11,423 nucleotides of DNA from Actinomycetota bacterium (GTDB lineage: Bacteria; Actinomycetota; Thermoleophilia; Solirubrobacterales; 70-9). The stretch covers positions 1 through 11,423 of the forward strand of contig JAFDWD010001011.1 in NCBI GenBank assembly GCA_018268695.1, read 5' to 3'. The position numbers and the translations under genes were made by a program. The notes beneath the pieces are model-generated. The model was not told the origin of the DNA and made no database searches. It saw nothing but the letters and a program-made list of their open reading frames with translations. Within the stretch, counting starts at the first letter, position 1. Every line of letters starts with the position of its first letter. Positions 1 through 11,423 of the stretch are shown here, in pieces.

Positions 1-126
1 GGTGAGCTCGACGTCGTCTTCGACGAGCGCACCCAGACCTTCGGCTACGTCCAGCCCGACCGCAGCTCCGAGCTCATCGAGCTCTCCAAGGAGCCGTCGT
101 GGCGCCGCATCGCCTACCGCCGGTAG
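1..126 (+). CDS. C-terminal end of an unrecognised protein (partial, 5' end outside window)
   Basis: Frame 1 is open from the first base and ends at a TAG at 124-126, giving 41 residues that end in SWRRIAYRR. The visible part is mixed: an acidic stretch (GELDVVFDER), then QTFGYVQPDRSSELIEL and a basic tail. Third positions are almost all G or C, as in the confident genes nearby, which supports real coding. No domain can be assigned from so short a tail, and I do not recognise the protein. A hairpin at 144-160 and a repeat element at 162-256 follow the stop. It is convergent with the minus-strand glpD/Rho-like pair. Confidence 0.6.
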   Translation, partial: GELDVVFDERTQTFGYVQPDRSSELIELSKEPSWRRIAYRR

Positions 127-143
127 GTAGTTGATCACACGGC

Positions 144-160
144 CCCGTCCGAGGGACGGG
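144..160 (+). terminator. Short GC hairpin after the first gene, possible terminator
   Basis: The arms CCCGTCC and GGACGGG form a perfect 7-bp stem around a GAG loop, 18 nt after the TAG at 124-126. There is no T-run after it (CAAGGGA follows), so a classic intrinsic terminator is not shown. High-GC actinobacteria often have stems without U tracts. It directly precedes the 39-nt repeat and may belong to that element. Confidence 0.35.
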
Positions 161-161
161 C

Positions 162-200
162 AAGGGACGCAACGGTCCGCGGCGAGCACGGCCGTCTCGG
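162..200 (+). repeat. 39-nt dispersed repeat, copy A
   Basis: This stretch matches 11336-11374 without gaps. The first 11 nt (AAGGGACGCAA) and the last 18 nt (CGAGCACGGCCGTCTCGG) are identical, and the central 10 nt vary (5 of 10 match), giving 34 of 39 identities. It starts 35 nt after a + strand stop codon; copy B starts 32 nt after one. The 3' half is itself a bulged palindrome (CGAG..ACGGCCGT..CTCG). A perfect inverted repeat follows at 210-256. It may be a repeated 3'-end/terminator element or a REP-like intergenic element. Its function is unknown. Confidence 0.7.
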
Positions 201-209
201 GGCAAGGAA

Positions 210-256
210 GTGCGTTCGTACTTAGTGGCCATATACCGCGCTAAGTACGAACGCAC
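210..256. repeat. Perfect 16-bp inverted repeat with 15-nt loop
   Basis: The arms GTGCGTTCGTACTTAG (210-225) and CTAAGTACGAACGCAC (241-256) are exact reverse complements around a 15-nt loop that includes CCATATACC. The stem is less GC-rich than its surroundings. It lies between convergent genes and follows repeat copy A by 9 nt. Possible roles are a bidirectional terminator, a palindromic intergenic element, or an operator; the position between two gene ends argues against an operator. Confidence 0.75.
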
Positions 257-343
257 CCGAGATGATCGCAGCCGAGGCGTGGCCTCTTACGCCTGCCAGG
301 ACCTCGATAAGACGCCCAGGACATCGAAGCTAGGACTGGCGGA

Positions 344-368
344 GCGGCCGGAAGGACGCCCGGCCCGC
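344..368 (-). terminator. GC-rich hairpin after the Rho-like gene, possible terminator
   Basis: GCGGCCGG (344-351) pairs with CCGGCCCGC (360-368) to give an 8-bp stem with one bulged C and an 8-nt loop. It sits directly after the stop of the minus-strand Rho-like gene (stop codon 372-374). No T-run follows on the minus strand, so termination is plausible but not shown. Confidence 0.35.
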
Positions 369-371
369 GGC

Positions 372-1232
372 TCAGCCGCGCTCTAGCGCCACGACCACCG
401 TCAGCGAGCCCTTGCCGGACGACTTTTTGGCGCGGCCGGCGTCGAAGAGCTCCTTCGCGGCGTCGTTGTCGCCGAAGGACCCGGCGAAGCGGGTCAGGGA
501 GTCGACCAGGAGGATCACGTCTTCGCCATCGCCGGCGCGGCGCTGGGCCGCGGCGAGCGCGTCGTCGGCGTGACGGGCCTGGCCGGCGGAGACGAGCTCG
601 GCTTTCGGCGCCTCGCGCTTCCAGTCGGCCAGCTCCTCGGGGCTCGGGTCGATCAGCAGGGCGACCGGGTCGGGACCCTCGGAGGCCTCGGCGAGGTCGG
701 CGGCGACGCCGCGCAGCAGTTCGGTGGCCGCCTCGCGGCTGTCGGCGATCAACACGGCCTGGCGACCCGACTCGGCGGGCAGCAGCAGATCCTGGATCGA
801 GAGCCCCTCTTTGCGGCGCCCGAACGGACGGCGGCGACGGCGACGACGCCGCGGGCGGGAGCCCTCCCCATCCTCGTCGGCGTCCTTCTCCGCATCCTCG
901 GTATCGCGACCGGAATCCTCGGCAGCGCGGGAGCTCGAGGCGGCGCGGCTGCGCCGCGGACGGGGCTGCTCCTCCTCTTCTTCCTCGACGTCGGTGCGCT
1001 CCTCGCGTTCGCGCCCGCTCGAGGCGGAGCGGCGACGTCGGCGGCGCGGGCGCTCGCGGCCCTCATCGGCATCGGCGTCGCCCGACGCGGAGCCACCCTC
1101 GTCACCGTTGCCGTCGCTGAGGCGCTCGATCAGCTCGGCGCGCGTCAGCATCCGGAAGCGCTCGACGCCGGCAGCGGCGGCGAGCTGGTGGAGGTCAGAA
1201 AGATGTTTGGATTCGAGCTCGGTCTTGGTCAT
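372..1232 (-). CDS. Rho-like protein: Rho_N domain, charged low-complexity insert, degenerate Rho ATPase core
   Basis: The protein has 286 residues. Residues 5-40 (ELESKHLSDLHQLAAAAGV...MLTRAELIERL) are a typical Rho N-terminal helical domain. Residues 42-142 are an Arg/Asp/Glu-rich segment with Arg runs at 63-68 and 127-135. Residues 145-286 follow the Rho ATPase core: LLID at 192-195 (Rho VLLIDERPEE), the Walker B-like DVILLVDSLTRFA at 238-250 (Rho DVVILLDSITRLA), and GSLTVVVAL at 275-283 (Rho GSLTIIATAL). Where Rho has its P-loop (APPKAGKT), this protein has IADSREAAT (162-170), with no Gly-Lys-Thr. The OB-fold RNA-binding part is not visible, and the protein stops where Rho continues for roughly 90 more residues, including the arginine finger. 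It is most likely a paralogue that cannot hydrolyse ATP, not the working Rho. The ATG lies 12 nt after the glpD stop, without a strong RBS, which suggests coupling to glpD. Confidence 0.8.
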   Translation of the reverse strand: MTKTELESKHLSDLHQLAAAAGVERFRMLTRAELIERLSDGNGDEGGSASGDADADEGRERPRRRRRRSASSGREREERTDVEEEEEEQPRPRRSRAASSSRAAEDSGRDTEDAEKDADEDGEGSRPRRRRRRRRPFGRRKEGLSIQDLLLPAESGRQAVLIADSREAATELLRGVAADLAEASEGPDPVALLIDPSPEELADWKREAPKAELVSAGQARHADDALAAAQRRAGDGEDVILLVDSLTRFAGSFGDNDAAKELFDAGRAKKSSGKGSLTVVVALERG

Positions 1233-1244
1233 CGCGAGGCGACT

Positions 1245-2984
1245 TTAGTCAACGCGGTCCGCCGAGGACGCGGCGGCCGGCGCGGAAGCGCCCCCCATAC
1301 TTCGCGCCGGGTCCACCCCTTCCTCCGCCGCGACGCCCTCCCAGGCCGCGATCTCGGCCTCGACCCGGGCGTCCGTCCAGCCCAGCTCCCCGCCCAGCGC
1401 CGCGGCGATCGGCCGCCGCGCCTCCGGGTCGCGCAGCGAGGGCGCCGCGAGGATCCCGAGGCGGGTGCGCCGCAGCAGCACGTCGCCGAGCGAGCGCGCC
1501 TGCTCGTGGCGCGCCGCCACCACGACCTCGGCCAGGAGATCGGGGCGATCGGGCACGATCGGCGCCGCCAGCTCCGGCCGCTCCCGCACCAGGTCGAGCA
1601 CCTTGCGCGCCGCGTGGCCGTAACGGAAGGCGAGCTGTGACAGCGCCTCCTCCCCCACCTCGTCGGATGCCTCGAGGTCGGCCGGGCGAGCCTCCATCCC
1701 CAGCGGGATCTCGGCCGTGCGGCACGGCGCCTTGCGCCCTTCCCGCTCGACCAGCCGATCCACCGTCAGTTTCGCCATCCGTCGGTAGGTGGTGAGCTTT
1801 CCTCCGGTGATCGTCAGCATCCCCGACGAGGTCTCGTACAGCTCCTCCTTGCGCGAGATGTCGACCGACTTGCGCGGATCGCCGCTCGAGATCAGCGGCC
1901 GCACCCCGGCGTAGGCGCCGACCAGGTCACCCGCCCCGAGGGCCGTGCCGAAGAAGGAGTTGGCCGCGTCGAGCAGGTACTCGACTTCGTCCTCGGCAGG
2001 CCGCGGGTGCCGCGTGTCGCCGTCGAAGTCGTTGTCGGTGGTACCGATCAGCGTCCGCCCGTACCAGGGCAGCGCGAAGATCATCCGCCCTTCGCCCGCC
2101 GGGACGATGCAGGCGGCGCTGCCCATCGGCAGGTCGGCGGCGTCGAGCACCAGGTGGGTCCCGCGGCTCGGCGCGATCCGCGGCACGTCCTCCTCCTCGA
2201 TCACCTCGGGGCGGATCGTGTCGGCCCAGACGCCGGTCGCGTTGACCACGTGGTCGGCGCTCACCTCGATCCGCTCGCCCGAGTCAGCCTCGACGAAGGC
2301 GACGCCGGCGGCGCTCCCGGGCCCGCCCGTCACCTCGACCACGTCGGCGCCGTTCAGCATCGCCGCGCCGTAGCGTTCGGCCTCGCCGAGCACGGTCAGC
2401 ACGAGCCGCACGTCGTCGGTCTGGCAGTCGTAGAAGAGGTAGGCGTCGTGGGGGTCGCGCGTGGCGAGCGCCGGGACCAGCCCAAGTACCTCGTCGTGGT
2501 CGATCGTCCGGTGGCGATCCGGGGACCACCAGGGGTCGCCCTCGCGCTCCTGCGCGGAGAATTTCTCCCGCTTCTCCCGTTTCTCGCGCCGACCGCGCCC
2601 GGCCCGCGAGGACGCCATCACGTCGTACATGTTCAGTCCGATACCGACTTTGCGGTCGCGCTTCTCCTCGCCCAGCGCGGCGACCAGGAACGGGGTCGGG
2701 TAGACCAGGTGCGGCGTCAGGTGCACGAGCAGCTGGCGCTCCAGGAGCGCCTCGCGCACCAGGCCGAGGTCGAAGTTCTGCAGGTAGCGGAGGCCGCCGT
2801 GGACCATCTTGGAGGAGCGGCTCGAGGTGCCGACGGCGAAATCGTCGCGCTCCAGCAACGCCACCGAGTAGCCGCGCGAGGCGGCGTCGAGCGCGACCCC
2901 GGCGCCGGTGATGCCGCCGCCGATCACGACCACCTCGAAGTGGGCGCCCGCGATCACCTCGATCGCCGCGGCGCGGGTCAGCAT
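1245..2984 (-). CDS. glpD: Aerobic glycerol-3-phosphate dehydrogenase (FAD-dependent)
   Basis: GlpD oxidises sn-glycerol 3-phosphate to dihydroxyacetone phosphate at the inner face of the membrane and passes the electrons to quinone. The 579-residue product has the usual family length. An FAD dinucleotide fold starts at residue 17 (EVVVIGGGITGAG, Gly motif 22-29), with the ribose-binding acidic residue at E45 (LLERDDF). The GlpD signature GTSSRSSKMVHGGLRYL is at 52-68. GGKLTTYRRMAKL lies before the C-terminal DAO_C-type domain. The ATG at 2984 is preceded by GGGGGCG. A short charged repeat (REKREKREK, about residues 133-141) interrupts the substrate domain and looks like a local triplet expansion. 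No glpK or glpF is visible, so glycerol use must be completed elsewhere. The gene is 69 nt downstream of the B12 operon's last stop on the same strand; read-through is possible but not shown. Confidence 0.95.
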   Translation of the reverse strand: MLTRAAAIEVIAGAHFEVVVIGGGITGAGVALDAASRGYSVALLERDDFAVGTSSRSSKMVHGGLRYLQNFDLGLVREALLERQLLVHLTPHLVYPTPFLVAALGEEKRDRKVGIGLNMYDVMASSRAGRGRREKREKREKFSAQEREGDPWWSPDRHRTIDHDEVLGLVPALATRDPHDAYLFYDCQTDDVRLVLTVLGEAERYGAAMLNGADVVEVTGGPGSAAGVAFVEADSGERIEVSADHVVNATGVWADTIRPEVIEEEDVPRIAPSRGTHLVLDAADLPMGSAACIVPAGEGRMIFALPWYGRTLIGTTDNDFDGDTRHPRPAEDEVEYLLDAANSFFGTALGAGDLVGAYAGVRPLISSGDPRKSVDISRKEELYETSSGMLTITGGKLTTYRRMAKLTVDRLVEREGRKAPCRTAEIPLGMEARPADLEASDEVGEEALSQLAFRYGHAARKVLDLVRERPELAAPIVPDRPDLLAEVVVAARHEQARSLGDVLLRRTRLGILAAPSLRDPEARRPIAAALGGELGWTDARVEAEIAAWEGVAAEEGVDPARSMGGASAPAAASSADRVD

Positions 2985-3053
2985 CGCCGCGCCCCCGGGC
3001 CGACACCGACGACCTGGGTTTCCCTGCCGAGGTCCATCGCTCGAGGGTACTCG

Positions 3054-5234
3054 TCAGGAGTAACGGCGCGGCGGCGGAGGCGGCTCCGGGGCCGGAGCGT
3101 GTGGGGTCGTGCCGTTGATCGCCGGGGGCGGGGGCGGCGGCATCGAGCCGAGGGTGACCCGGCCGGTGCTCGACGGCGGCGCGGGTGGAGGCGCCGGTGG
3201 CGTCTTCGGATGCGTCGCCTTCCAGCGCTTGTAGGGGCCGAAGCCGATCGCGAAGAGGATCCCCCCGGCCACCAGGCCGGCGACGATCGATCCGAGCACC
3301 GAGCCGCCCCCCGAGCCCGAACCCGAGTCGGAGCCCGCCACGGGGACTCCTTCGGAGAACGATTCGCCGGTGCCTTCTTCGATCGGCTCGGGCGTCGGCG
3401 CTTCGGCCGGCGGGGCCGTGCCGGCGCCGCCGGGGTTCGTGCCCACGCCCCCGGTCTTGCCCTGCTTCCCGTTCTGGCCCTTCTTGCCGCCGCCGTGAGC
3501 CTTCGGCGCGGAAGATTCGGCCCCCGGCACTTCCGCCGGGAGTTCGGGGATCGGCGTCGGCAACGGGGCCACGCCGCCTTCTTCGGGCAGCGGCAGGGGC
3601 GTGATTTCAGGGGTGGGAGTCGGGGTGGGCTTCGGCGCCTTCGGCTTCGGCGCCCGCGGCACCGCCGCCAGCGGCAGGTGCTGCTTCGCCGCCGCGACCA
3701 GCACCGTGCCCGTCACCCATACCGGAGTCTGGTCGCTCTTCGCGGAGTACCGGTAGTGGCCGTCGGCGTCCTGGTTGTCTTCGAGGTATTCGAACGCCGA
3801 CTTGCCGCCGCGCTTGAACTCGGCCGGGTTCGCGCCCGCGGCGAGCAGGCCCTCGATCGCCCAGGCCGTCGATTGCGTGTTCAGCACGCCGTTGCCGCCG
3901 AGCCGCCAGCCGCCGCCCGGCTGCTGGGTCTGGCGCAGGTAACCGATCGCCTTCTTCGCCGGCTTCCCGGACGGATCCAGCACCTGCAGCACCGCCCCGG
4001 TCCCGTCGGCGTTGCTCGGCGCGCCCTCGGTGTCGCCCCAGCCGCCGTCTTCGTTCTGGACTTCCCGCAGCCATTCGATCGAGTCGGAGACGTTGGCGAT
4101 CCCGGCCGAGCGCAGCGCCAGCACCGCGTACGCGGTCGTGTTCGGCCACGCTTCATAGGAACCGTCCTTGCGTCGCTTGGCGAGCAGCGCCGCGACCAGG
4201 TTGCGCCCGCCGAATTCGCGCGGTTCGACCCCGGCGCCCTCGAGGGCGAGGATCGTGCGGGCGAGGTCCCCGGGGCTCTGGATCTCGCTGAGGACGCCCT
4301 GGAGGTACTCGACCGGCGACTTGCCACCGGCGCTGGTGACGTCGAGGGGGTTCACCCCGGCCGCCTCGAGCCCGAGCATCGCCCAGCCGGTCATCGCCTG
4401 CGCCGACTTGGCGCCGGGCTTTTCGCCCCAGCCGCCGTCCTCGTTCTGGGTCCCTTCGAGCCAGGTGACCGCGGCTTCGGTGCCGCCCGCGGGAGCGGCC
4501 TCGGCGCGGGTCGAGGCGAAGGCGCCGAGCAGCAGCACCGCGACGAGAACGGTGGCGATGCGGCCCGTGGTCGCGATGCCGCCGGCAGCAGGCGGCACCG
4601 CCCCGGTCGGCTTCACCGTCCCGACTTCCTCCCGCTTCCATTCGAAACGTTCACGGAATCGAATCAACATCCTGATCATCGCGGGACCGGCGGCGAGCGC
4701 AAGGACGACGTTGCCGGCTGCATGGGCTACTTCAAAGGGGATCGCCCGGCCCTCGAGCAGCCAGAAGCGCTCCCAGGAGAGACTGCCGCTGCCGTAGGTC
4801 GCCATCAGCGAGAAGTTGAGGATCGCGCCGTAGCCGACCGCGGCGAGGCCGCAGACCGCGGCGAGCGTCAGCCGTCCGACGTTGCGGGTGCCGAGCGCCA
4901 GCGCCGCGCCAAGGATGCCGCAGAGTCCCCAGGCCGCCATCTGCCAGGGCGTCCAGGGGCCCTGGCCGAACCAGAAGTTCGAGATCAGCGCCGAGAAGGC
5001 GCCGACCGCAAAGCCCGCCGCCGGGCCGAGCGCGTAGCCCGCGAAGATGACGATGTCGGTGGTCGGCTTGACGTTGGGGAAGGCGGCGAAGGCGACGCGC
5101 CCGGCGATCGCCAGCGCGGCCAGGGCGGCGACGAGGGCGACGACCTGCGACGGCGGGCGCGAGCGCTCGTACCAGCCGAAGCCGGCGAGGAGGACCCCGG
5201 CGAGGATCAGGAAGCTGACCAGCTGCCAGCTCAT
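3054..5234 (-). CDS. ECF transporter S-component fused to an extracellular six-repeat alpha/alpha barrel (predicted corrinoid-binding)
   Basis: The start ATG shares ATGA with the ATPase stop, giving 726 residues. Residues 1-195 are a multi-pass membrane domain with ECF S-component character (FPNVKPTTDIVIFAGYALGP, then a Trp/Gly-rich WFGQGPWTPWQMAAWG), ending in a basic loop RFRERFEWKRE. A single hydrophobic helix (225-240) then leads outside. Residues 252-525 hold six helix-pair repeats, several centred on an Asp-Gly-aromatic turn: DGGW 265, DGSY 357, DGGW 396, GGGW 440, DGHY 491. This is the prenyltransferase/squalene-cyclase alpha6/alpha6 fold, which also forms the N-terminal domain of intrinsic factor and transcobalamin. 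A Pro-rich then Gly/Lys-rich spacer (526-644), a second anchor helix (645-665) with KRWK after it, and a Pro-rich cytosolic tail complete it. The topology fits the positive-inside rule. I infer the barrel holds or passes a corrinoid to the S-component. Another vitamin is possible, but the riboswitch points to B12. Confidence 0.85.
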   Translation of the reverse strand: MSWQLVSFLILAGVLLAGFGWYERSRPPSQVVALVAALAALAIAGRVAFAAFPNVKPTTDIVIFAGYALGPAAGFAVGAFSALISNFWFGQGPWTPWQMAAWGLCGILGAALALGTRNVGRLTLAAVCGLAAVGYGAILNFSLMATYGSGSLSWERFWLLEGRAIPFEVAHAAGNVVLALAAGPAMIRMLIRFRERFEWKREEVGTVKPTGAVPPAAGGIATTGRIATVLVAVLLLGAFASTRAEAAPAGGTEAAVTWLEGTQNEDGGWGEKPGAKSAQAMTGWAMLGLEAAGVNPLDVTSAGGKSPVEYLQGVLSEIQSPGDLARTILALEGAGVEPREFGGRNLVAALLAKRRKDGSYEAWPNTTAYAVLALRSAGIANVSDSIEWLREVQNEDGGWGDTEGAPSNADGTGAVLQVLDPSGKPAKKAIGYLRQTQQPGGGWRLGGNGVLNTQSTAWAIEGLLAAGANPAEFKRGGKSAFEYLEDNQDADGHYRYSAKSDQTPVWVTGTVLVAAAKQHLPLAAVPRAPKPKAPKPTPTPTPEITPLPLPEEGGVAPLPTPIPELPAEVPGAESSAPKAHGGGKKGQNGKQGKTGGVGTNPGGAGTAPPAEAPTPEPIEEGTGESFSEGVPVAGSDSGSGSGGGSVLGSIVAGLVAGGILFAIGFGPYKRWKATHPKTPPAPPPAPPSSTGRVTLGSMPPPPPPAINGTTPHAPAPEPPPPPRRYS

Positions 5235-6865
5235 CCGGGGCGCTCCGCGAGGTGGGCGGCGCCCTGCTCGGGGGTGACGACGCCGGGGCGGTCGAGGACG
5301 CGGGCGACCTCGGTGGCGAAGTACCAGCCGCCGGAGAGGATCTCGGCGCTCGGGCCGTCGGCGATCACGACCCCGTCGCCGAGGAGGACGACGCGCTCGG
5401 CGAACTCGGCGGCGAACTCGACGTCGTGGGTGGCGATGACGACCGCCGCGCCTCCCGCGGCGAGGCACTCGACCAGCTTGTGGAGATCCTCCTTGCGGCC
5501 GCGGTCCATCCCCCGGGTCGGCTCGTCGAGGGCGACGAGGCCGGGGACGCCGTCCCCCTCGAGGCGCCCGGCGAGGGCGATCGCGAGGGCGAGCCGCTGG
5601 CGCTCGCCGCCGGAGAGGTCGCGCGGATCGGCGTCGATCGCGTGCTCCATCCCGACCGCGCGCAGCGCGTCGCGACCGTCGACGCCCGGCAGCTCGTCGC
5701 CGACCCGCTCGCGGACGAGGAAATCGCTCGGATTCTGGGTAAGGAGCGCCATCCGCGCCGCCGCTACCCGGCCCGCGACCGGATCGATCAGGTCGGCCGC
5801 GGTGCGCAGCAGCGTCGACTTCCCGGCCCCGTTGCGACCCATCAGGGCGACGCGTTCGCCGGGCGCGACGGCGAGGTCGATGCCCCGGAGCACGTCCCGC
5901 GCCTCCTCCCCGCCGTCGAGCTCCACCCAGAGCCCCTTCGCCTCGAACGCCCACGGCCCCTTACCACCACGCCTGAAGGATTGGTGTTGCCCTGACGACA
6001 CCAATGCTTCAGGCGTGGTCGTTTCGCCCAGGGTCCGGCGCGCGTCGCGGACGCCGACCGGCAGCGGCTCGATCCCGACCAGGGAGAAGAGCCGCGCGGC
6101 GGGGGTCGTCAGCGCCGGGTCGGCCTCCCGCGTCCAGCCGAGGAACTCGCGCGGCGAGCCGTCGAAGCCGATCCGCCCGTCCTCCATCGCCACCACCCGA
6201 TCGGCCGCCGCGAGGCACCGCTCGAGACGGTGTTCGGCAAGCACCACCGCCACCCCCCACTCCTCGTTCAGCCGCCGCAGGAGCCAGATCAGCTCGTCGC
6301 CGGAGACCGGGTCGAGCTGCGAAGTCGGCTCGTCGAGGAGGACCAGCCGCGGCCGCGTCACCAGCGCCGCCGCCAACGCCACCCGCTGCAGCTCGCCGCC
6401 CGAGAGCGTGTCGACGGCGCGCTCGAGCAGGTGCGGGATCGCCAGCGCCAGCGCCACCTCCTCGACCGCGCGCGCCCGGTCCCCGGGGCCGTCCCCACGC
6501 ATCTCCAGCGGCAGCTCGATCTCGGCCGCGACCGTGGTCGAGACGACCTGCGTCTCCGGATCCTGGGCGACGTAGCCGACCGCGGCGGCCAGCTCGCCCG
6601 GGCCGGCGGCGATCGCGTCGAGCCCGGCGACCTCGACCCGGCCCTCGACCTCGCCGCCGTGGAAGTGGGGCACCAGGCCACAGCCCGCGCGCAGGAGCGT
6701 CGACTTGCCCGAGGCCGAGCGCCCCGCGAGCAGCACGAACTCCCCCGGCGCGACCTCCACCGAGACGTCGAGCAGGGCCGGCGCGGCGGCGCGCGCGTAG
6801 GAATAGGAGAGACGGTCGACCGCGAGGGCCGGGGCCGCGCCGCGCCGGATCGCGAGCTCAGACAC
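5231..6865 (-). CDS. ecfA: ECF transporter double ATPase (two ABC domains in one chain)
   Basis: This is the energising pair of an energy-coupling-factor importer, with both ABC domains in one 544-residue chain. Domain 1 has Walker A GRSASGKST (48-56), Q-loop YVAQDPETQ (98-106), signature LSGGELQR (154-161), Walker B LVLLDEP (174-180) and H-loop LAEHR. Domain 2 has Walker A GRNGAGKST (343-351), Q-loop LLTQNPSDF (374-382), signature LSGGERQR (417-424), Walker B LVALDEP (443-449) and H-loop IATHD. All catalytic motifs look intact. I chose the GTG start at 6865 because GGGAGG lies just upstream and because it gives a normal N-terminus; an in-frame extension upstream would only overlap ecfT. The gene overlaps the ecfT stop by 8 nt (GTGTCTGA) and the S-component start by 4 nt. 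The linker between the domains (residues 283-300) is encoded by a 54-nt palindrome. Confidence 0.93.
   Translation of the reverse strand: MSELAIRRGAAPALAVDRLSYSYARAAAPALLDVSVEVAPGEFVLLAGRSASGKSTLLRAGCGLVPHFHGGEVEGRVEVAGLDAIAAGPGELAAAVGYVAQDPETQVVSTTVAAEIELPLEMRGDGPGDRARAVEEVALALAIPHLLERAVDTLSGGELQRVALAAALVTRPRLVLLDEPTSQLDPVSGDELIWLLRRLNEEWGVAVVLAEHRLERCLAAADRVVAMEDGRIGFDGSPREFLGWTREADPALTTPAARLFSLVGIEPLPVGVRDARRTLGETTTPEALVSSGQHQSFRRGGKGPWAFEAKGLWVELDGGEEARDVLRGIDLAVAPGERVALMGRNGAGKSTLLRTAADLIDPVAGRVAAARMALLTQNPSDFLVRERVGDELPGVDGRDALRAVGMEHAIDADPRDLSGGERQRLALAIALAGRLEGDGVPGLVALDEPTRGMDRGRKEDLHKLVECLAAGGAAVVIATHDVEFAAEFAERVVLLGDGVVIADGPSAEILSGGWYFATEVARVLDRPGVVTPEQGAAHLAERPG
5966..6019. repeat. 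54-nt near-perfect palindrome inside the ecfA linker
   Basis: On the + strand the outer arms ACCACGCCTGAAG (5966-5978) and CTTCAGGCGTGGT (6007-6019) pair perfectly. After one G:G mismatch the inner arms ATTGGTGT (5980-5987) and ACACCAAT (5998-6005) also pair, leaving a 10-nt loop: 21 paired bases per arm. The element spans exactly 18 codons (residues 283-300) between the two ATPase domains and leaves the frame intact. The inner arms are AT-richer than the surrounding gene. Possibilities are an in-frame palindromic insertion, similar in concept to Rickettsia palindromic elements, or an mRNA hairpin acting in translation. Confidence 0.8.
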
Positions 6866-7790
6866 GGCCCGCCTCCCGCGCCACCGACACCCGCGCCGGG
6901 GCGACGCGGCGCCGAGCCGTCCCCCGCGCCGGCCGCAGCGGCGCCAGGCCGCTCGCGGCCACCACCGCACAGACCGCGAGCGTCGCGGCGCCGAGGCCGA
7001 CGTGGATCGTCGGGTAGGGATGGAAGTCGTCGGCGCCCGCGACCTTGCCGACGATCGCCACCACAAGGACCACCGCCGCGACGGCGTAGAAGCGGACATC
7101 GTGGCGGCTCGGCTCGCGCCGCCGGCGCCCACGCGGGACGTCGAGGCTGTAGCCGCGGAGCTCGAGCGTCGCCGCCACGTCGACCGCGCGATCGAGCGAG
7201 CCCGCCAGGAGGCGCCGCGCCAACGCCCCCTTCCCCACCGGCGCCGCCCCCGGGCCGCGCAGCTGCCCCGCGTCGCGGAGGCGCCCGGCGTCGGCCGCCG
7301 CCACCGGCACCAGGCGCGAGACCAGCGTCGCGGTGAGCGCCGAGCGCGCCGCGATCGGCCGCAGCGCCCGCAGCACCCGGTCGGGGTCGACGCAGGCCGA
7401 GTAGACGCCGAAGGCGACCATCGTCACCACCGCCCGCATCCCGATCGAGACCCCCGCGACGATCGACTCCAGGGTGATGTCGACCTGGCCGAGAATCGGC
7501 AGCTCGCCGAGGCGCGCCAGCACCGTCTCCCCGCGATCGACGACCAACGCGTTGACGACGACGATCAGGAGCGCCAGCCCGAGCCCCATCCGCAGCGCCG
7601 CCCGGACCGCGGTCCGGGCCCCCGCCAGGCGCCCGGCCAGGCACGCCGCGAACCCCGCGGCGAGCAGCACGGGCGGGCTCGAGTAGAGGAAGGCGACGAC
7701 GACCAGCGCGCCGAGATAGGCGACCGCGGCGCCGGGCCGGGCCGACTGCAGCGGCCCCCGGCGAGGGATATAGGCGAACGGCGATCTCAT
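6858..7790 (-). CDS. ecfT: ECF transporter T-component (CbiQ/EcfT family permease)
   Basis: EcfT links the two ATPase domains to the S-component in the membrane. The 310-residue product has hydrophobic segments near residues 22-55, 65-83, 105-132 and two more after residue 225. It carries two Arg-Gly coupling motifs expected in this family: DAGQLRG (173-179) and ATLELRGYS (207-215). In known ECF structures these sit on the long cytosolic helices that dock into the ATPase grooves. The ATG shares ATGA with the preceding lipoprotein gene and has GGGAGCGAG just upstream. Its stop lies within the start region of ecfA. No cobalt/nickel CbiM or CbiN partner is present, so the complex is better read as a vitamin importer with the S-component encoded two genes downstream. 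The C-terminal end is Arg-rich. Confidence 0.92.
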   Translation of the reverse strand: MRSPFAYIPRRGPLQSARPGAAVAYLGALVVVAFLYSSPPVLLAAGFAACLAGRLAGARTAVRAALRMGLGLALLIVVVNALVVDRGETVLARLGELPILGQVDITLESIVAGVSIGMRAVVTMVAFGVYSACVDPDRVLRALRPIAARSALTATLVSRLVPVAAADAGRLRDAGQLRGPGAAPVGKGALARRLLAGSLDRAVDVAATLELRGYSLDVPRGRRRREPSRHDVRFYAVAAVVLVVAIVGKVAGADDFHPYPTIHVGLGAATLAVCAVVAASGLAPLRPARGTARRRVAPARVSVAREAGRV

Positions 7791-8716
7791 CTCGCTCCCG
7801 AGCGGAGTGGCAGCGGCGTCACCGCCCCCGCTTCGCTCTCCACCGCGAAATGGTCCCGCAAATCGTCGGAATCGAGAACTTCGGCCGCCGATTCCACCGC
7901 CGCGAGCGTGCCGCCGGTGACCAGCCATACCGGCGGGCCTTCGAAGTGGCGGGTCGCCGCGACCAGGCCCGCGTCGGGACCGAAGGTGCGTGCCTTGGCG
8001 CCGTCTTCGTCGATCCCGACCAGCTGCCAGCCGCCCTTGCCCTGTGCGAACTCGGCGTAGACACCGCTTTCCCCGGGGCCGTTCTCGACCAGCGGGCCGA
8101 TCGGGTCCGAGCGCAGCTTCGCCCACGGCCCGACCAGCACCCGGATCGCGCCCTTCGGCGATCCCGAGGCGATCTTCACCCCTTCTCCTTCGAGTGCCCC
8201 GCGCACCGTCGCGCACGCCTTCCCGCCGCCCTTGCATTCGACGACGACCGCCGGCGCGTGCCCTTCCCAGCCCGTCGTGAACGGCGCGGGCCAGGAGCCG
8301 ACCACCGCCGGGACATGCGCGGTCCCGGACCAGTTGTGCATGTCCCACCAGATCCGCTCGCCGCCCTTCAGCGACACCTGGGCGGCGCCGACCGGGGACT
8401 CGACCCCGTTCAGGTAGAAGAACCAGTCGTAGGGATGGCCGCCGCGTTCGCTTTCTTCGATCCCGTCGATCGACTTCACGTAGCCGCCGCCGTAGCGCGT
8501 CTGGAGGTCTTCGACTTCGCCTTCGAGGAAGCGCATCACCGTGTCGGATTCGTTCGCTTCTCCCGACGATTCCGACACCTTGGTCGCGCCGAATTCACGC
8601 GTCACGGTCAGGTCGACCGAGCCGACCTTCTCGCCCGGGCCGAGACCGCAGCCGGCGGCCACGACCGCCGCTCCGAGCAGGAGCGCGATCGCGACCGCCT
8701 TGCCGCGGCGAGACAT
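7787..8716 (-). CDS. Lipoprotein with transcobalamin-like C-terminal (DUF4430) domain plus an unknown C-terminal domain
   Basis: The 309-residue product starts with a basic/hydrophobic signal (RRGK then about 16 apolar residues) ending at AAGC, with Cys23 as the likely lipidated residue; the -3 position is Ala, a weaker lipobox than usual. Residues 31-130 match the DUF4430 pattern: a strand near VGSVDLTVTREFG, TVMRFLEG (59-66), DWFFYLNGVES (97-107) and GGERIWWDMHNW (118-129). That domain corresponds to the C-terminal beta domain of intrinsic factor and transcobalamin. Residues 135-309 form a second region I do not recognise, with Cys155/Cys161-type residues near its start and a LVTGG...LDSDDLRDHF end. 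It is likely anchored on the outer face of the membrane next to the barrel of the S-component fusion. The start overlaps the previous stop as TGATG. Corrinoid binding is inferred. Confidence 0.87.
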   Translation of the reverse strand: MSRRGKAVAIALLLGAAVVAAGCGLGPGEKVGSVDLTVTREFGATKVSESSGEANESDTVMRFLEGEVEDLQTRYGGGYVKSIDGIEESERGGHPYDWFFYLNGVESPVGAAQVSLKGGERIWWDMHNWSGTAHVPAVVGSWPAPFTTGWEGHAPAVVVECKGGGKACATVRGALEGEGVKIASGSPKGAIRVLVGPWAKLRSDPIGPLVENGPGESGVYAEFAQGKGGWQLVGIDEDGAKARTFGPDAGLVAATRHFEGPPVWLVTGGTLAAVESAAEVLDSDDLRDHFAVESEAGAVTPLPLRSGAR

Positions 8717-9456
8717 CAGCTACCGGCGGGGCACTTCGAGCCGAGGCAGACCGGCTCCTGCGCGGAGGGGATCGCTTCGCCGATCGCGGCACTCAGCAGC
8801 GTCGGTTCGGTCAGCGTCACCATCACCTTGCCGCTGGCGTCGGTGGGCCCGGTAGCGCCGATCACCGTCGCGCCCTTCATCGGCTTGTGCTGCCCCTTTT
8901 CGTTGTAGGCGTAGACGTGCACCGCGAACGGCACCCCGGCGCTCGCCTGCCGCGGCGCGCTCAGCACCAGCTCTTCCGGATAGGGGTAGGACGGCGCCAG
9001 GTCCCAGAGGACTTCGTCGCCGGTCTTGATCTTGGCCTTTTCGCCGCCGACCGTGGCGCCCTTGTGGTTGATCTTCAGGTACCAGGAGGCCTTCCCGGAG
9101 GCGACGCTCTTGCCGACGCCGCAGAGGCCGAGGCCGAAGCTGAAGTGATCGGTGAGCGAGAGCGGCGAGAGCTGCTTGATCGTCTTCGCGCCGTTGGCGA
9201 GCAGCCCCAGCGCCGTGTTGCCCTTCAGCGCCACGGACTTGCCGCTGCCGCCGGTCCCGGCGCCGAGGCAGGTCGCCTTCGGGCTGGTGTTGACGGAGAC
9301 GTTCGGGGACTTGACCAGTTCTTCGGCGAGCACCACGTTGCCCTTGCCGACGACGCGCAGCGTCGCCGTCGTGGCGGAGGCGGTCGCGGACACCACCAGT
9401 GCGAGACAGAGGACCAGCGCGCACGCGGCCACGGTCGATTTCATCCTGCTTGGCAT
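8716..9456 (-). CDS. Exported protein with DUF4430 domain and Ig-like domain, first gene after the B12 riboswitch
   Basis: I place the start at the ATG at 9454-9456, which has GAGGAAAGGG upstream and gives MPSRMKSTVAACALV. The open frame continues to 9579, but that part is riboswitch RNA. The 246-residue protein has a signal peptide (about 1-28, ending ATASA). A DUF4430-like domain covers about 33-155, with SWYLKINHKGATVG (124-137) and GDEVLWDL (146-153) as its signature. Cys63 and Cys112 could form a disulfide. Residues 156-236 look like an Ig-like beta domain (ELVLSAPRQASAGVPFAVHVYAY, then DASGKVMVTLTEP). The end carries two more cysteines (237 and 242). No lipobox or sorting motif is visible, so it may be free in the wall or medium. 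Being the first gene, it answers most directly to the riboswitch. I infer a role in corrinoid capture. Confidence 0.85.
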   Translation of the reverse strand: MPSRMKSTVAACALVLCLALVVSATASATTATLRVVGKGNVVLAEELVKSPNVSVNTSPKATCLGAGTGGSGKSVALKGNTALGLLANGAKTIKQLSPLSLTDHFSFGLGLCGVGKSVASGKASWYLKINHKGATVGGEKAKIKTGDEVLWDLAPSYPYPEELVLSAPRQASAGVPFAVHVYAYNEKGQHKPMKGATVIGATGPTDASGKVMVTLTEPTLLSAAIGEAIPSAQEPVCLGSKCPAGS

Positions 9457-9459
9457 ATG

Positions 9460-9490
9460 AGCCACCCTTTCCTCGAGGGTCGTATTGGCT
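9460..9490 (-). promoter_or_regulatory. Candidate Shine-Dalgarno sequestering hairpin (riboswitch expression platform)
   Basis: On the minus strand ACCCT and AGGGT pair around CGAGGAA, and AGCC (5') can pair with GGCT (3') after a 6-nt bulge. The RBS-like GAGGAAAGGG of the first gene lies in the loop and 3' arm. Sequestration would fit translational control, common for B12 riboswitches in high-GC bacteria. No U-tract terminator is seen between the aptamer and the ATG. The pairing was worked out by eye. Confidence 0.4.
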
Positions 9491-9668
9491 GGCCGGGGAC
9501 AGGTCTCCTGGCTTCCGGGGTTTGGGCGGGCCGCGCCTTCCCGGGAGCGGATGCGCCCCCAGTGGCCGACGCCAGGCAAGCGGCGTCCGCGACCTCCTCG
9601 ACCCGGTCACAGTGGCGGGACCACGCCGGTTTCGCACCGGACTTCCCTTGACCACCGACCGTATGTAG
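9490..9668 (-). promoter_or_regulatory. Cobalamin (B12) riboswitch
   Basis: Read on the minus strand, the leader has the conserved landmarks of the cobalamin aptamer in order: AAGGGAAGTCCGGTGCGAAACC near 9629-9650, the CCGCCACTGT loop at 9609-9618, variable peripheral stems, and the B12 box GGAAGCCAGGAGACCTG near 9499-9516. The length of about 180 nt is normal. It lies 34 nt upstream of the ATG of the first operon gene. Corrinoid binding is expected to reduce expression of the five genes downstream, which is how these riboswitches usually act on B12 importers. The boundaries are approximate, and I could not find a convincing promoter between it and the divergent gene at 9745. Confidence 0.96.
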
Positions 9669-9744
9669 GTGGCGAGTCTATTAGGCTCTCACCGCTCGGG
9701 CATTACCTGAGCACTGGGGATGACTCGTCCGATGGAGGTCTGAG

Positions 9745-10392
9745 ATGAAGCGCATCAGCCGGCGGCTACCGTCGCCCGCCCTGGTGATCGCCTGCCTTGC
9801 CCTGTTCGTCGCCCTCGGCGGCACCGTGCTGGCGGCGACCAAGATCGACGGCCGACGGATCGAGGTGAGATCGCTGCCCGGCAACCGCCTCGAAGTCGGC
9901 TCGCTGCCCGGCAACCGCATCGCGACCGATTCGGTGAAGGGCTCCCAGATCCAACTCGACACGCTGGGCGAGGTGCCGAGTGCCGCCCACGCCGATTCCG
10001 CCGACACCGCCCGCCGCGCCCAGACCGCGACGGCGGCCGACCATGCCGCCGACGCGACGACGATCAACGGCCACACGGTGGGATGCCCGGCCGGACGGCG
10101 CCAGTACGCCGGAGCGTGCTGGGACCTGACGCCGAGCGCGGCGGTCGCGAACGCGACGGATGCGGCGGCGTCCTGCGCGGCGCAGGGTGGGGAGCTGCCG
10201 TCGCTGCTGACGTTCATGGCGTTTCTCCGCGAACCAGGAGCCAACGTCGCCGTGGGAGGCGAGTGGGTGGACGAGATAATCGCGCTCACTACTGACTACG
10301 ACGTTCTGACCCTTCAGAGCAACGGATCCGTTTTTGCCAGCTCCCCGCAGAGCCTCTTCCACTACCGCTGCGTGACGCCGCTCCTCGGCTGA
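9745..10392 (+). CDS. Exported protein with SLPGNR repeats and a possible C-type-lectin-like C-terminal domain
   Basis: The 215-residue product begins with MKRISRRLPSPALVIA and an apolar stretch ending about residue 31 (GGTVLAA), a signal peptide or membrane anchor. GGAGGT at 9734-9739 sits at good spacing from the ATG. Residues 33-70 contain short repeats, with SLPGNR occurring twice; the DNA shows the same 18 nt at 9871-9888 and 9901-9918, a 30-nt period. An Ala/Asp-rich segment (AHADSADTARRAQTATAADHAADA) follows. From about residue 112 a compact Cys-containing region (CPAGRRQYAGACW ... CAAQGGELPSL ... EWV ... FHYRCV) has the spacing of a short lectin-like or related fold. The N-terminal design is one I associate with Thermoleophilia. 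Function unknown; it is divergent from the B12 operon and probably not part of it. Confidence 0.8.
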   Translation: MKRISRRLPSPALVIACLALFVALGGTVLAATKIDGRRIEVRSLPGNRLEVGSLPGNRIATDSVKGSQIQLDTLGEVPSAAHADSADTARRAQTATAADHAADATTINGHTVGCPAGRRQYAGACWDLTPSAAVANATDAAASCAAQGGELPSLLTFMAFLREPGANVAVGGEWVDEIIALTTDYDVLTLQSNGSVFASSPQSLFHYRCVTPLLG

Positions 10393-10412
10393 TGCCCAAA
10401 TAACCTGCGGCG

Positions 10413-11303
10413 ATGTCCGGCCGAGCACTCGCCGTCGCGCTTCTCCTCTTCGTCCTCCTCGTCGGAACCGCGCGGGCCGACCCGACCCCGCGCCAGATCG
10501 AGCGGTTCTGGACGCCCGCGCGGATGGCGGCGGCACGGCCGCTCGAGCTGTCGGTGGACGGCGACGGTCGCGCCGATACCCACCTTGGCCCCCGCCCCCG
10601 GCCGGCCACCGCCAGCTACTCGACCGTCGAATCGCCAGAAGATCCGCCGTACGCCTGGAACGGCCGACTCTTCGTCCGCCAGGACGGCGAGGAAGGCTTC
10701 TGCTCGGCCACCGCGATCGACTCGCCTACCCGCCGCCTCGTCCTCACCGCCGGCCACTGCGTCAACGGCGGCCCCAAGGACGGCAAGCCCGGCGCCTGGT
10801 CGACCTACCTCGAGTTCGTCCCCGGGTTCAACCTCGGTGCCGCCCCTTACGGCACCTTCACCCTCTCGGGCCGGCCCCGGGCGCTGCCCCAGTGGGTGAA
10901 GGAAGGCAACCCGGACTTCGACCTCGGCGCCTTCCTCGTCGAACCGAACGCCGAAGGCGTCGCCCTCGCCGACGCGGTCGGCGGCGGGGCGACGATCGTC
11001 ACCGACCGCGGCCCCCGCCAACGCTTCGAAAGCTTCGGCTACCCCGGCGGCACCGAACGGATGCGCACCTGCGTCTCGGGCTTCGCCGGCCACGACCCGA
11101 TCACCGCGACCCTGCCCGGTCCGAGCACGATCGGGATCCGCTGCGACTGGGCCCCGGGAGCGAGCGGCGGCGGTTGGCTGATCGAAGGCGGCACCGAGAT
11201 CGACGGCCTCAACAGCTACATCACCGACGAAGGCCCGAAGAAGCTCACCTTCGGCCCCTACTTCTCGGCGAGCACCGTCGGCCGGCTCGTCGCCGGGCTG
11301 TAG
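10413..11303 (+). CDS. Secreted trypsin-like serine protease (peptidase S1 family)
   Basis: The 296-residue product has a signal peptide (about 1-22, MSGRALAVALLLFVLLVGTARA). It carries a trypsin-fold triad: His115 in LTAGHC (111-116), Asp170 in DFDLGAF (168-174) and Ser251 in GASGGGW (249-255). Cys96 and Cys116 fit the disulfide that brackets the histidine, and Cys220 with Cys244 could form a second one near the active serine. The stretch from about 23 to 80 may be a short propeptide. The specificity pocket cannot be assigned with confidence. The ATG is 20 nt after the previous stop with no strong RBS; co-transcription is possible. All catalytic residues are present, so activity is likely. 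The substrate is unknown. Confidence 0.88.
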   Translation: MSGRALAVALLLFVLLVGTARADPTPRQIERFWTPARMAAARPLELSVDGDGRADTHLGPRPRPATASYSTVESPEDPPYAWNGRLFVRQDGEEGFCSATAIDSPTRRLVLTAGHCVNGGPKDGKPGAWSTYLEFVPGFNLGAAPYGTFTLSGRPRALPQWVKEGNPDFDLGAFLVEPNAEGVALADAVGGGATIVTDRGPRQRFESFGYPGGTERMRTCVSGFAGHDPITATLPGPSTIGIRCDWAPGASGGGWLIEGGTEIDGLNSYITDEGPKKLTFGPYFSASTVGRLVAGL

Positions 11304-11335
11304 AAGGACCCGCGGCCCGCGCCGGGGACCGAGGA

Positions 11336-11374
11336 AAGGGACGCAAGGGCTTGCCGCGAGCACGGCCGTCTCGG
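11336..11374 (+). repeat. 39-nt dispersed repeat, copy B
   Basis: This is the gap-free match of 162-200: identical first 11 and last 18 nt, variable middle 10 nt. It starts 32 nt after the stop of the protease gene. Its 3' part (CGGCCGTCTCGG) forms the outer half of the left arm of the perfect inverted repeat at 11363-11414, whereas in copy A the inverted repeat is a separate sequence 9 nt further on. Confidence 0.7.
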
Positions 11375-11414
11375 CCACGGCCCGGGCTGGCTGTGGCCGT
11401 GGCCGAGACGGCCG
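11363..11414. repeat. Perfect 20-bp inverted repeat with 12-nt loop
   Basis: The arms CGGCCGTCTCGGCCACGGCC (11363-11382) and GGCCGTGGCCGAGACGGCCG (11395-11414) are exact reverse complements around CGGGCTGGCTGT. It lies 59 nt after the protease stop. As RNA it would be an extremely stable hairpin and could end transcription, although GGGTATGAA follows with no T-run. The window ends 9 nt later, so the downstream context is unseen. Confidence 0.8.
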
Positions 11415-11423
11415 GGGTATGAA

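Follow-up and report, generated by a model that had tools for sequence, protein, structure and literature searches.

A riboswitch-headed operon for a CbrT-like ECF importer with a putative transcobalamin-like surface clamp in an actinobacterium

Background

We report the computational analysis of a stretch of DNA of 11,423 nucleotides (contig JAFDWD010001011.1 of assembly GCA_018268695.1, positions 1 to 11,423 of the forward strand; in full, the window), with a guanine plus cytosine content of 73%, from an actinobacterium known from environmental DNA. Its minus strand carries a single compact operon in which a cobalamin riboswitch is followed by two genes for DUF4430-type proteins (A1 and A2), the EcfT component and the double ATPase EcfA-EcfA' of an energy-coupling factor (ECF) importer and, in last position, a protein that joins an S-component to a barrel of helices and is here named S-barrel. 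No function is stated for bacterial DUF4430 in the open papers or in the Pfam entry examined. An earlier note on this DNA had proposed that the operon carries both halves of an animal-type B12 carrier on separate proteins; its observations are confirmed by the present work and its interpretation is partly supported. The operon probably encodes a B12-repressed, ECF-type cobalamin importer that is equipped with a dedicated surface capture device.

Results

The operon and its leader

The features of the operon are as follows, the start codons being our choice among the in-frame candidates.

9481..9671, minus strand: cobalamin riboswitch aptamer RF00174, the operon leader (65.9 bits, gathering score 31.5, E 8.7e-15, model positions 1-189 of 189, full length)
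8716..9456, minus strand: A1, 246 amino acids; signal peptide (by eye), DUF4430-like core and C-terminal Ig-like domain (by eye)
7787..8716, minus strand: A2, 309 amino acids; lipoprotein with a transcobalamin-beta-like DUF4430 domain (about residues 26-130) and a C-terminal domain
6858..7790, minus strand: EcfT transmembrane component, 310 amino acids (PF02361, 46.4 bits; hydrophobic segments, RG motifs)
5231..6865, minus strand: EcfA-EcfA' double ATPase, 544 amino acids, GTG start (PF00005 over two stretches; doubled motif sets)
3054..5234, minus strand: S-barrel, 726 amino acids; S-component and barrel in one protein
4635..5234, minus strand: CbrT-like S-component, S-barrel residues 1-200, with an extra N-terminal hydrophobic segment (match to 6fnp_A)
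4494..4565, minus strand: internal signal-peptide-like segment, S-barrel residues about 224-247, with A-x-A before the barrel (hydropathy)
3660..4487, minus strand: predicted alpha6/alpha6 barrel, S-barrel residues about 250-525
3054..3659, minus strand: Pro/Gly-rich spacer, C-terminal membrane segment (642-668) and basic tail (hydropathy; sequence)

Successive genes overlap by a few bases each. The aptamer lies directly upstream of A1 on the same strand, with 24 bases separating its end from the A1 start codon and GAGGAAAGG lying in that interval. The riboswitch, EcfT, the double ATPase and the fusion of an S-component to a six-repeat alpha/alpha barrel, all named in the earlier note, were thereby recovered, as was the span given for the operon, 3054..9668, save for its end, which has to be moved to 9671.

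The importer core

The EcfA-EcfA' protein matches PF00005 with an E-value of 3.1e-43 over its two stretches and retains, intact, two Walker A motifs, two LSGGE signatures and two Walker B motifs, while its score against TIGR04520 (243.5 bits) falls below the cut-off of 315. EcfT scores 29.9 against the CbiQ equivalog model, the cut-off of which is 111.8. Residues 28-200 of the S-component match chain 6fnp_A (E 5.4e-11), the sole match in the PDB at E up to 0.01, and a profile of 47 sequences of the S-barrel fusion raises this match to E 2.7e-21, the next S-component being FolT at E 0.59. Against PF12822 the S-component reaches 25.9 bits, under the cut-off of 30.7, and the CbiM family is not among the family matches of the S-barrel protein. 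Entry 6FNP is ECF-CbrT (PMC5997447), and its chain A would be CbrT itself, judging from its length of 182 residues and from this match. CbrT has an affinity of 9.2 nM for cyanocobalamin and of 36 nM for cobinamide (PMC5997447). A CbrT-related S-component is found in the same operon as EcfT and two ATPase domains, the set of parts that makes up a CbrT-type ECF transporter, and assignment of the S-component to the CbrT type is supported at the level of sequence.

The DUF4430 proteins

The profile search that the earlier note had proposed detects DUF4430 (PF14478) in A2, at 47.2 bits with a cut-off of 23.8. The claim of two exported DUF4430 proteins holds less firmly for A1, which on its own is a weak match (18.1 bits, under the cut-off), but its counterpart at the same place of the operon in a related locus (L006, Conexibacter arvalis) passes at 26.9 bits; comparison of A1 with the A2 family by hhalign gives a probability of 55% and E 1.2e-4 over 34 columns. 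Pairs of PF14478 matches no more than 2 kb apart occur in 15 of the 29 Thermoleophilia genomes that have DUF4430. The lipobox cysteine of A2, Cys23, is invariant in 54 aligned sequences, and A1, A2 and S-barrel all appear, from their sequences, to bear export or membrane-anchor signals.

The predicted structure of A2 (predicted local distance difference test, pLDDT, 90.6) has, by structural comparison, a carrier-type beta domain of the PF14478 fold, and its best matches in the PDB are cobalamin carriers, with haptocorrin on top. It is this comparison that links A2 to the carriers, since searching the PDB by sequence, whether with the two proteins or with an A2 profile, returned chance matches only. 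Taking importer and DUF4430 proteins together, we consider it very likely that they handle corrinoids.

The barrel

In the predicted model, residues 250-518 of S-barrel form 12 helices, that is, six hairpins. Between 251 and 520 there are 27 blocks of ten residues, and their pLDDT is at least 94, save for one block at 89. The model supports folding of this part of the protein as an alpha6/alpha6 barrel, a fold that structural comparison shows to be common to glycosidases, prenyltransferases and cyclases. The barrel part matches the SCO2321 family of NCBIfam (NF053823) at 117 bits, below the family cut-off of 300. Residues W284 and T412 are conserved in all 42 barrels compared and D410 in 41 of them. 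The internal signal-peptide-like stretch is preceded by basic residues; these, together with the C-terminal membrane segment and the basic tail, indicate that the barrel should face outward. At the two alanine positions of the A-x-A site between S-component and barrel, 41 and 42 of the 47 sequences aligned have Ala, and the barrel might be cut from the S-component there.

Barrel-like and DUF4430 genes also stand next to one another outside the fusion. L082 and L084 each lie on a different contig from the S-component and have a riboswitch with neighbouring genes for a barrel-like and a DUF4430 protein behind it; at L081 such genes lie behind a second riboswitch just past the ECF operon. A reading of L082 as a barrel-DUF4430 fusion was rejected, the reading frames being those of two adjacent genes. 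Both domains do meet in one chain, with DUF4430 over its cut-off together with a barrel-family match, in 5 (L037, L053, L057, L064 and L067) of 18 surface proteins picked by hand from those flagged in a profile scan of the loci; among the five, only L064 has a barrel over the cut-off, and four bear SLH domains. Where real, this would be the arrangement of the animal carriers in a bacterial surface protein, with other domains and other spacings. At a second locus of the L006 genome (L083), a pair of barrel proteins, one of which has collagen repeats, is encoded between two divergent B12 riboswitches; an RCC1-repeat protein adjoins them, and a DUF4430 match lies further along.

Co-occurrence across genomes

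The genome survey likewise proposed in the earlier note finds the parts strongly co-localised with B12 riboswitches and with each other. It covers 61 genomes of the Thermoleophilia (the class of L006) and 41 genomes of the Bacillota (the phylum of L064). Among the former, PF14478 is found in 29 genomes, RF00174 in 60 and the S-component in 28. DUF4430 is present in all 28 genomes with the S-component versus 1 of the 33 without it (Fisher p 1.5e-16, uncorrected for kinship). A riboswitch is no more than 3 kb away from 44 of the 52 DUF4430 matches in this class, and no more than 6 kb away from 46, where at most 0.24 and 0.46 are expected by chance. Within 6 kb of the 28 S-components there is a riboswitch in 24 cases, a DUF4430 match in 19 and a barrel in 21. 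In 9 of the 28 genomes with the S-component the S-barrel fusion is covered by a single profile match, two of these nine (G017 and G041) having stop codons inside the matched stretch, and S-component and barrel are neighbours within 3 kb in 12 more. DUF4430 occurs in 15 of the 41 Bacillota genomes, with 43 matches. A riboswitch is no more than 6 kb away from 37 of them, and 36 of those 37 are downstream of it on the same strand, at most 0.80 being expected.

These tallies leave out RF00174 rows below the gathering score (5 of 125 in the Thermoleophilia, 1 of 116 in the Bacillota) and, for the Thermoleophilia barrels, the 38 weakest of 91 rows, which are partial matches starting at 300 or later or ending by 400. 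All DUF4430 rows are counted, including three under the cut-off (one from the Thermoleophilia, two from the Bacillota).

Related loci

A scan of contigs with the S-barrel alignment gave at least 596 pattern matches, at least 574 of them confirmed, and the best 80 loci were studied. Because they were found by way of the S-component, its presence in them is no evidence. EcfT is present in 75 of the 80 and EcfA in 79, as judged with profiles of the window's families; the DUF4430 and barrel counts rest on such profiles too, which may miss distant copies. The barrel is fused in 24 loci; in 28 others it occupies a separate open frame, at any position within the locus. A scan of loci L001-L060, which leaves 20 of the 80 aside, places RF00174 upstream in 37 of them; among the 42 of these loci that offer at least 5.5 kb of upstream sequence, 33 have it. 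The loci come from Solirubrobacterales, which are also among the close named relatives of the S-barrel protein, from many Firmicutes, from an Armatimonadetes bin and from three archaeal bins (L039, L044 and L060), in which neither a barrel nor an RF00174 match was found. In 13 of the 80 loci (L047, L051, L054, L056, L060-L062, L065, L068, L070, L074, L076 and L077) a single open frame encodes a triple fusion of EcfA-EcfA' with the S-component.

Discussion

A proposed mechanism

We propose that, when B12 is scarce, the riboswitch would permit expression of the operon, and that the A2 lipoprotein, and probably also the exported A1, would hold cobalamin in the manner of the transcobalamin beta domain. 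The membrane-tethered barrel, on the chain of the S-component but outside the cell, would then close over the cobalamin as the alpha half. The clamped vitamin would be handed to the CbrT-like S-component, which would topple and release it inside, driven by EcfT and EcfAA'. This mechanism is based on operon anatomy, the riboswitch match, kinship to CbrT, predicted folds, sequence signals and co-occurrence; from these we infer that corrinoids are bound, that the two halves close, that the cargo passes to the S-component and that the chain may be cleaved at the A-x-A site. With the barrel tethered on the S-component chain, a loaded clamp would sit beside its acceptor. A split clamp is also physically sensible, since the halves of human transcobalamin, when made separately, assemble only upon addition of cobalamin, the beta half being able to bind B12 by itself (PMC5599065). 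On balance the barrel is somewhat more likely than not to be the second half of a B12 clamp.

Points against the clamp, and other explanations

Several observations weigh against this interpretation, most of them concerning the barrel. Of the earlier proposal that both carrier halves are present on separate proteins, the folds stand, DUF4430 resembling the carrier beta domain and the barrel being modelled as alpha6/alpha6; a sequence link for the barrel does not. No curated family ties it to the carrier alpha domain: PF01122 (Cobalamin_bind) gives no match, with E limits of 0.1 for the window protein, 0.05 for the 18 picked surface proteins and 0.01 for 10 further proteins. Profile searches of the PDB with the barrel find squalene cyclases, prenyltransferases and complement-type domains, carriers being absent among the best 60 of 65 matches in one search and all 43 in another, and its top structural matches are terpene cyclases, carriers again being absent among the best 50 structural rows. 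The stand-alone barrels are weak. With the A4 profile that of L082 reaches 85.3 bits; it has neither a Pfam match at E up to 0.05 nor one with the narrow barrel profile, and those of L081 and L084 score 21.4 and 24.0 bits, under the Pfam cut-off of 26.1. Not all loci hold all parts, DUF4430 being detected at least once in 51 of the 80 and the barrel in at most 52; the archaeal L039 and L044 combine DUF4430, EcfT, EcfA and a CbrT-like S-component without a barrel or riboswitch match. Finally, ECF-CbrT made in E. coli transports B12 without such helpers (PMC5997447).

The DUF4430 proteins might therefore capture B12 for the importer by themselves, the barrel serving as a wall anchor, glycan binder or docking platform, an explanation that we consider unlikely though worth keeping in mind. 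It draws on the wide use of the barrel fold and the nearness of the sequence to squalene cyclase, on those loci in which S-component and DUF4430 occur with no detected barrel and on the several Firmicutes barrels that reside on SLH-bearing surface proteins. Set against it are the three places where a riboswitch precedes neighbouring genes for a barrel-like and a DUF4430 protein, two of them away from the contig of the S-component, and the single proteins that the two domains share, which point to one common job, together with the near-invariance of W284, T412 and D410. The class II terpene cyclases, squalene-hopene cyclase among them, have the acid motif DxDDTA, and a surface enzyme of this kind, merely co-regulated with the importer, has some appeal in that DxDDT is retained by 7 of the 15 barrels taken from loci numbered after L031; the motif reads DVDDTA in the cyclase chain matched in the PDB. 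The window barrel, however, has NADGT (NADGTG) at the aligned place and lacks the acid motif, and the domain is predicted to be extracellular and a single small barrel, so that an enzyme of this kind is the least credible of the explanations considered here. As to the substrate, a corrinoid precursor or remnant (cobinamide or lower-ligand variants) in place of complete B12 is improbable. B12 riboswitches do also control salvage genes. CbrT takes up cobinamide too (PMC5997447), and haptocorrin, the top structural match of A2, binds it well, whereas human transcobalamin has a lower affinity for cobinamide than for cobalamin (PMC5599065). A cobalt or nickel importer of the CbiMNQO type, to which the match of EcfT to CbiQ might point, is very improbable. 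Cobalt importers often stand under B12 riboswitches, but a domain of the transcobalamin kind would be hard to explain if the cargo were a bare metal ion, and a cobalt importer was rejected on the absence of CbiM from the family matches of the S-barrel protein, on the CbrT-type S-component, with FolT a distant second, and on the low CbiQ equivalog score.

Comparison with known systems

The importer resembles ECF-CbrT of Lactobacillus delbrueckii (PDB 6FNP) in the kinship of its S-component and in having EcfT and two EcfA domains. It differs in that the operon itself encodes EcfT and a one-chain EcfAA', in the extra N-terminal hydrophobic segment and the external barrel of the S-component, and in the two DUF4430-type proteins under a B12 riboswitch. 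Unlike in transcobalamin, intrinsic factor and haptocorrin, the two halves are on separate proteins, one of them fused to a transporter subunit, and the barrel sequence in the window is not detectably related to the carrier alpha domain; Firmicutes loci have one-chain forms. The BtuF fold is not known to be related, and the transporter type of BtuCDF differs. What BtuF has in common with the present system is extracytoplasmic capture of B12 for an ATP-driven importer (PMC5997447). In L. delbrueckii a cbrS gene adjoins cbrT (PMC5997447), and one paper places a DUF4430 gene next to rtpR in L. rhamnosus. The arrangement described here was not found in those parts of the open-licence literature that our search covered, most subscription journals lying outside it. 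In older annotation systems a predicted cobalamin ECF transporter comes with an extra lipoprotein component, so that the arrangement may in part have been predicted earlier.

Neighbouring genes

Immediately downstream of the operon lies a gene for a GlpD-like glycerol-3-phosphate dehydrogenase (1245-2984, minus strand), followed by one for a truncated Rho-like protein (372-1232, minus strand). The latter combines a Rho_N domain and a long Arg-rich stretch with no more than a portion of the Rho ATPase core, its residues 146-253 aligning to 158-271 of 413. Upstream, on the opposite strand, are a gene without a family match (9745-10392, plus strand) and one whose product is weakly trypsin-like (10413-11303, plus strand; PF13365 21.0 bits, under the cut-off of 27.6).

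Significance

More broadly, bacteria of at least two phyla may carry a transcobalamin-like surface clamp for B12 that closes only around the vitamin and feeds an ECF importer, here divided into the DUF4430 proteins on one side and the S-component-tethered barrel on the other; we put this forward tentatively, at a little under even chances. Bacterial DUF4430 would gain a concrete role, and one that is quickly testable because binding of B12 shows as a colour shift. The usual view is that ECF systems work without extracellular capture proteins; if the proposal is true, such importers can be fed by dedicated ones. It would also mean that the barrel-plus-beta design of human intrinsic factor exists in, and perhaps comes from, bacteria, and would connect the B12 carriers of animals with a system found in two bacterial groups, the Thermoleophilia and the Firmicutes. 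Since B12 exchange shapes many microbial communities, a high-affinity scavenging device of this kind would bear on microbial ecology.
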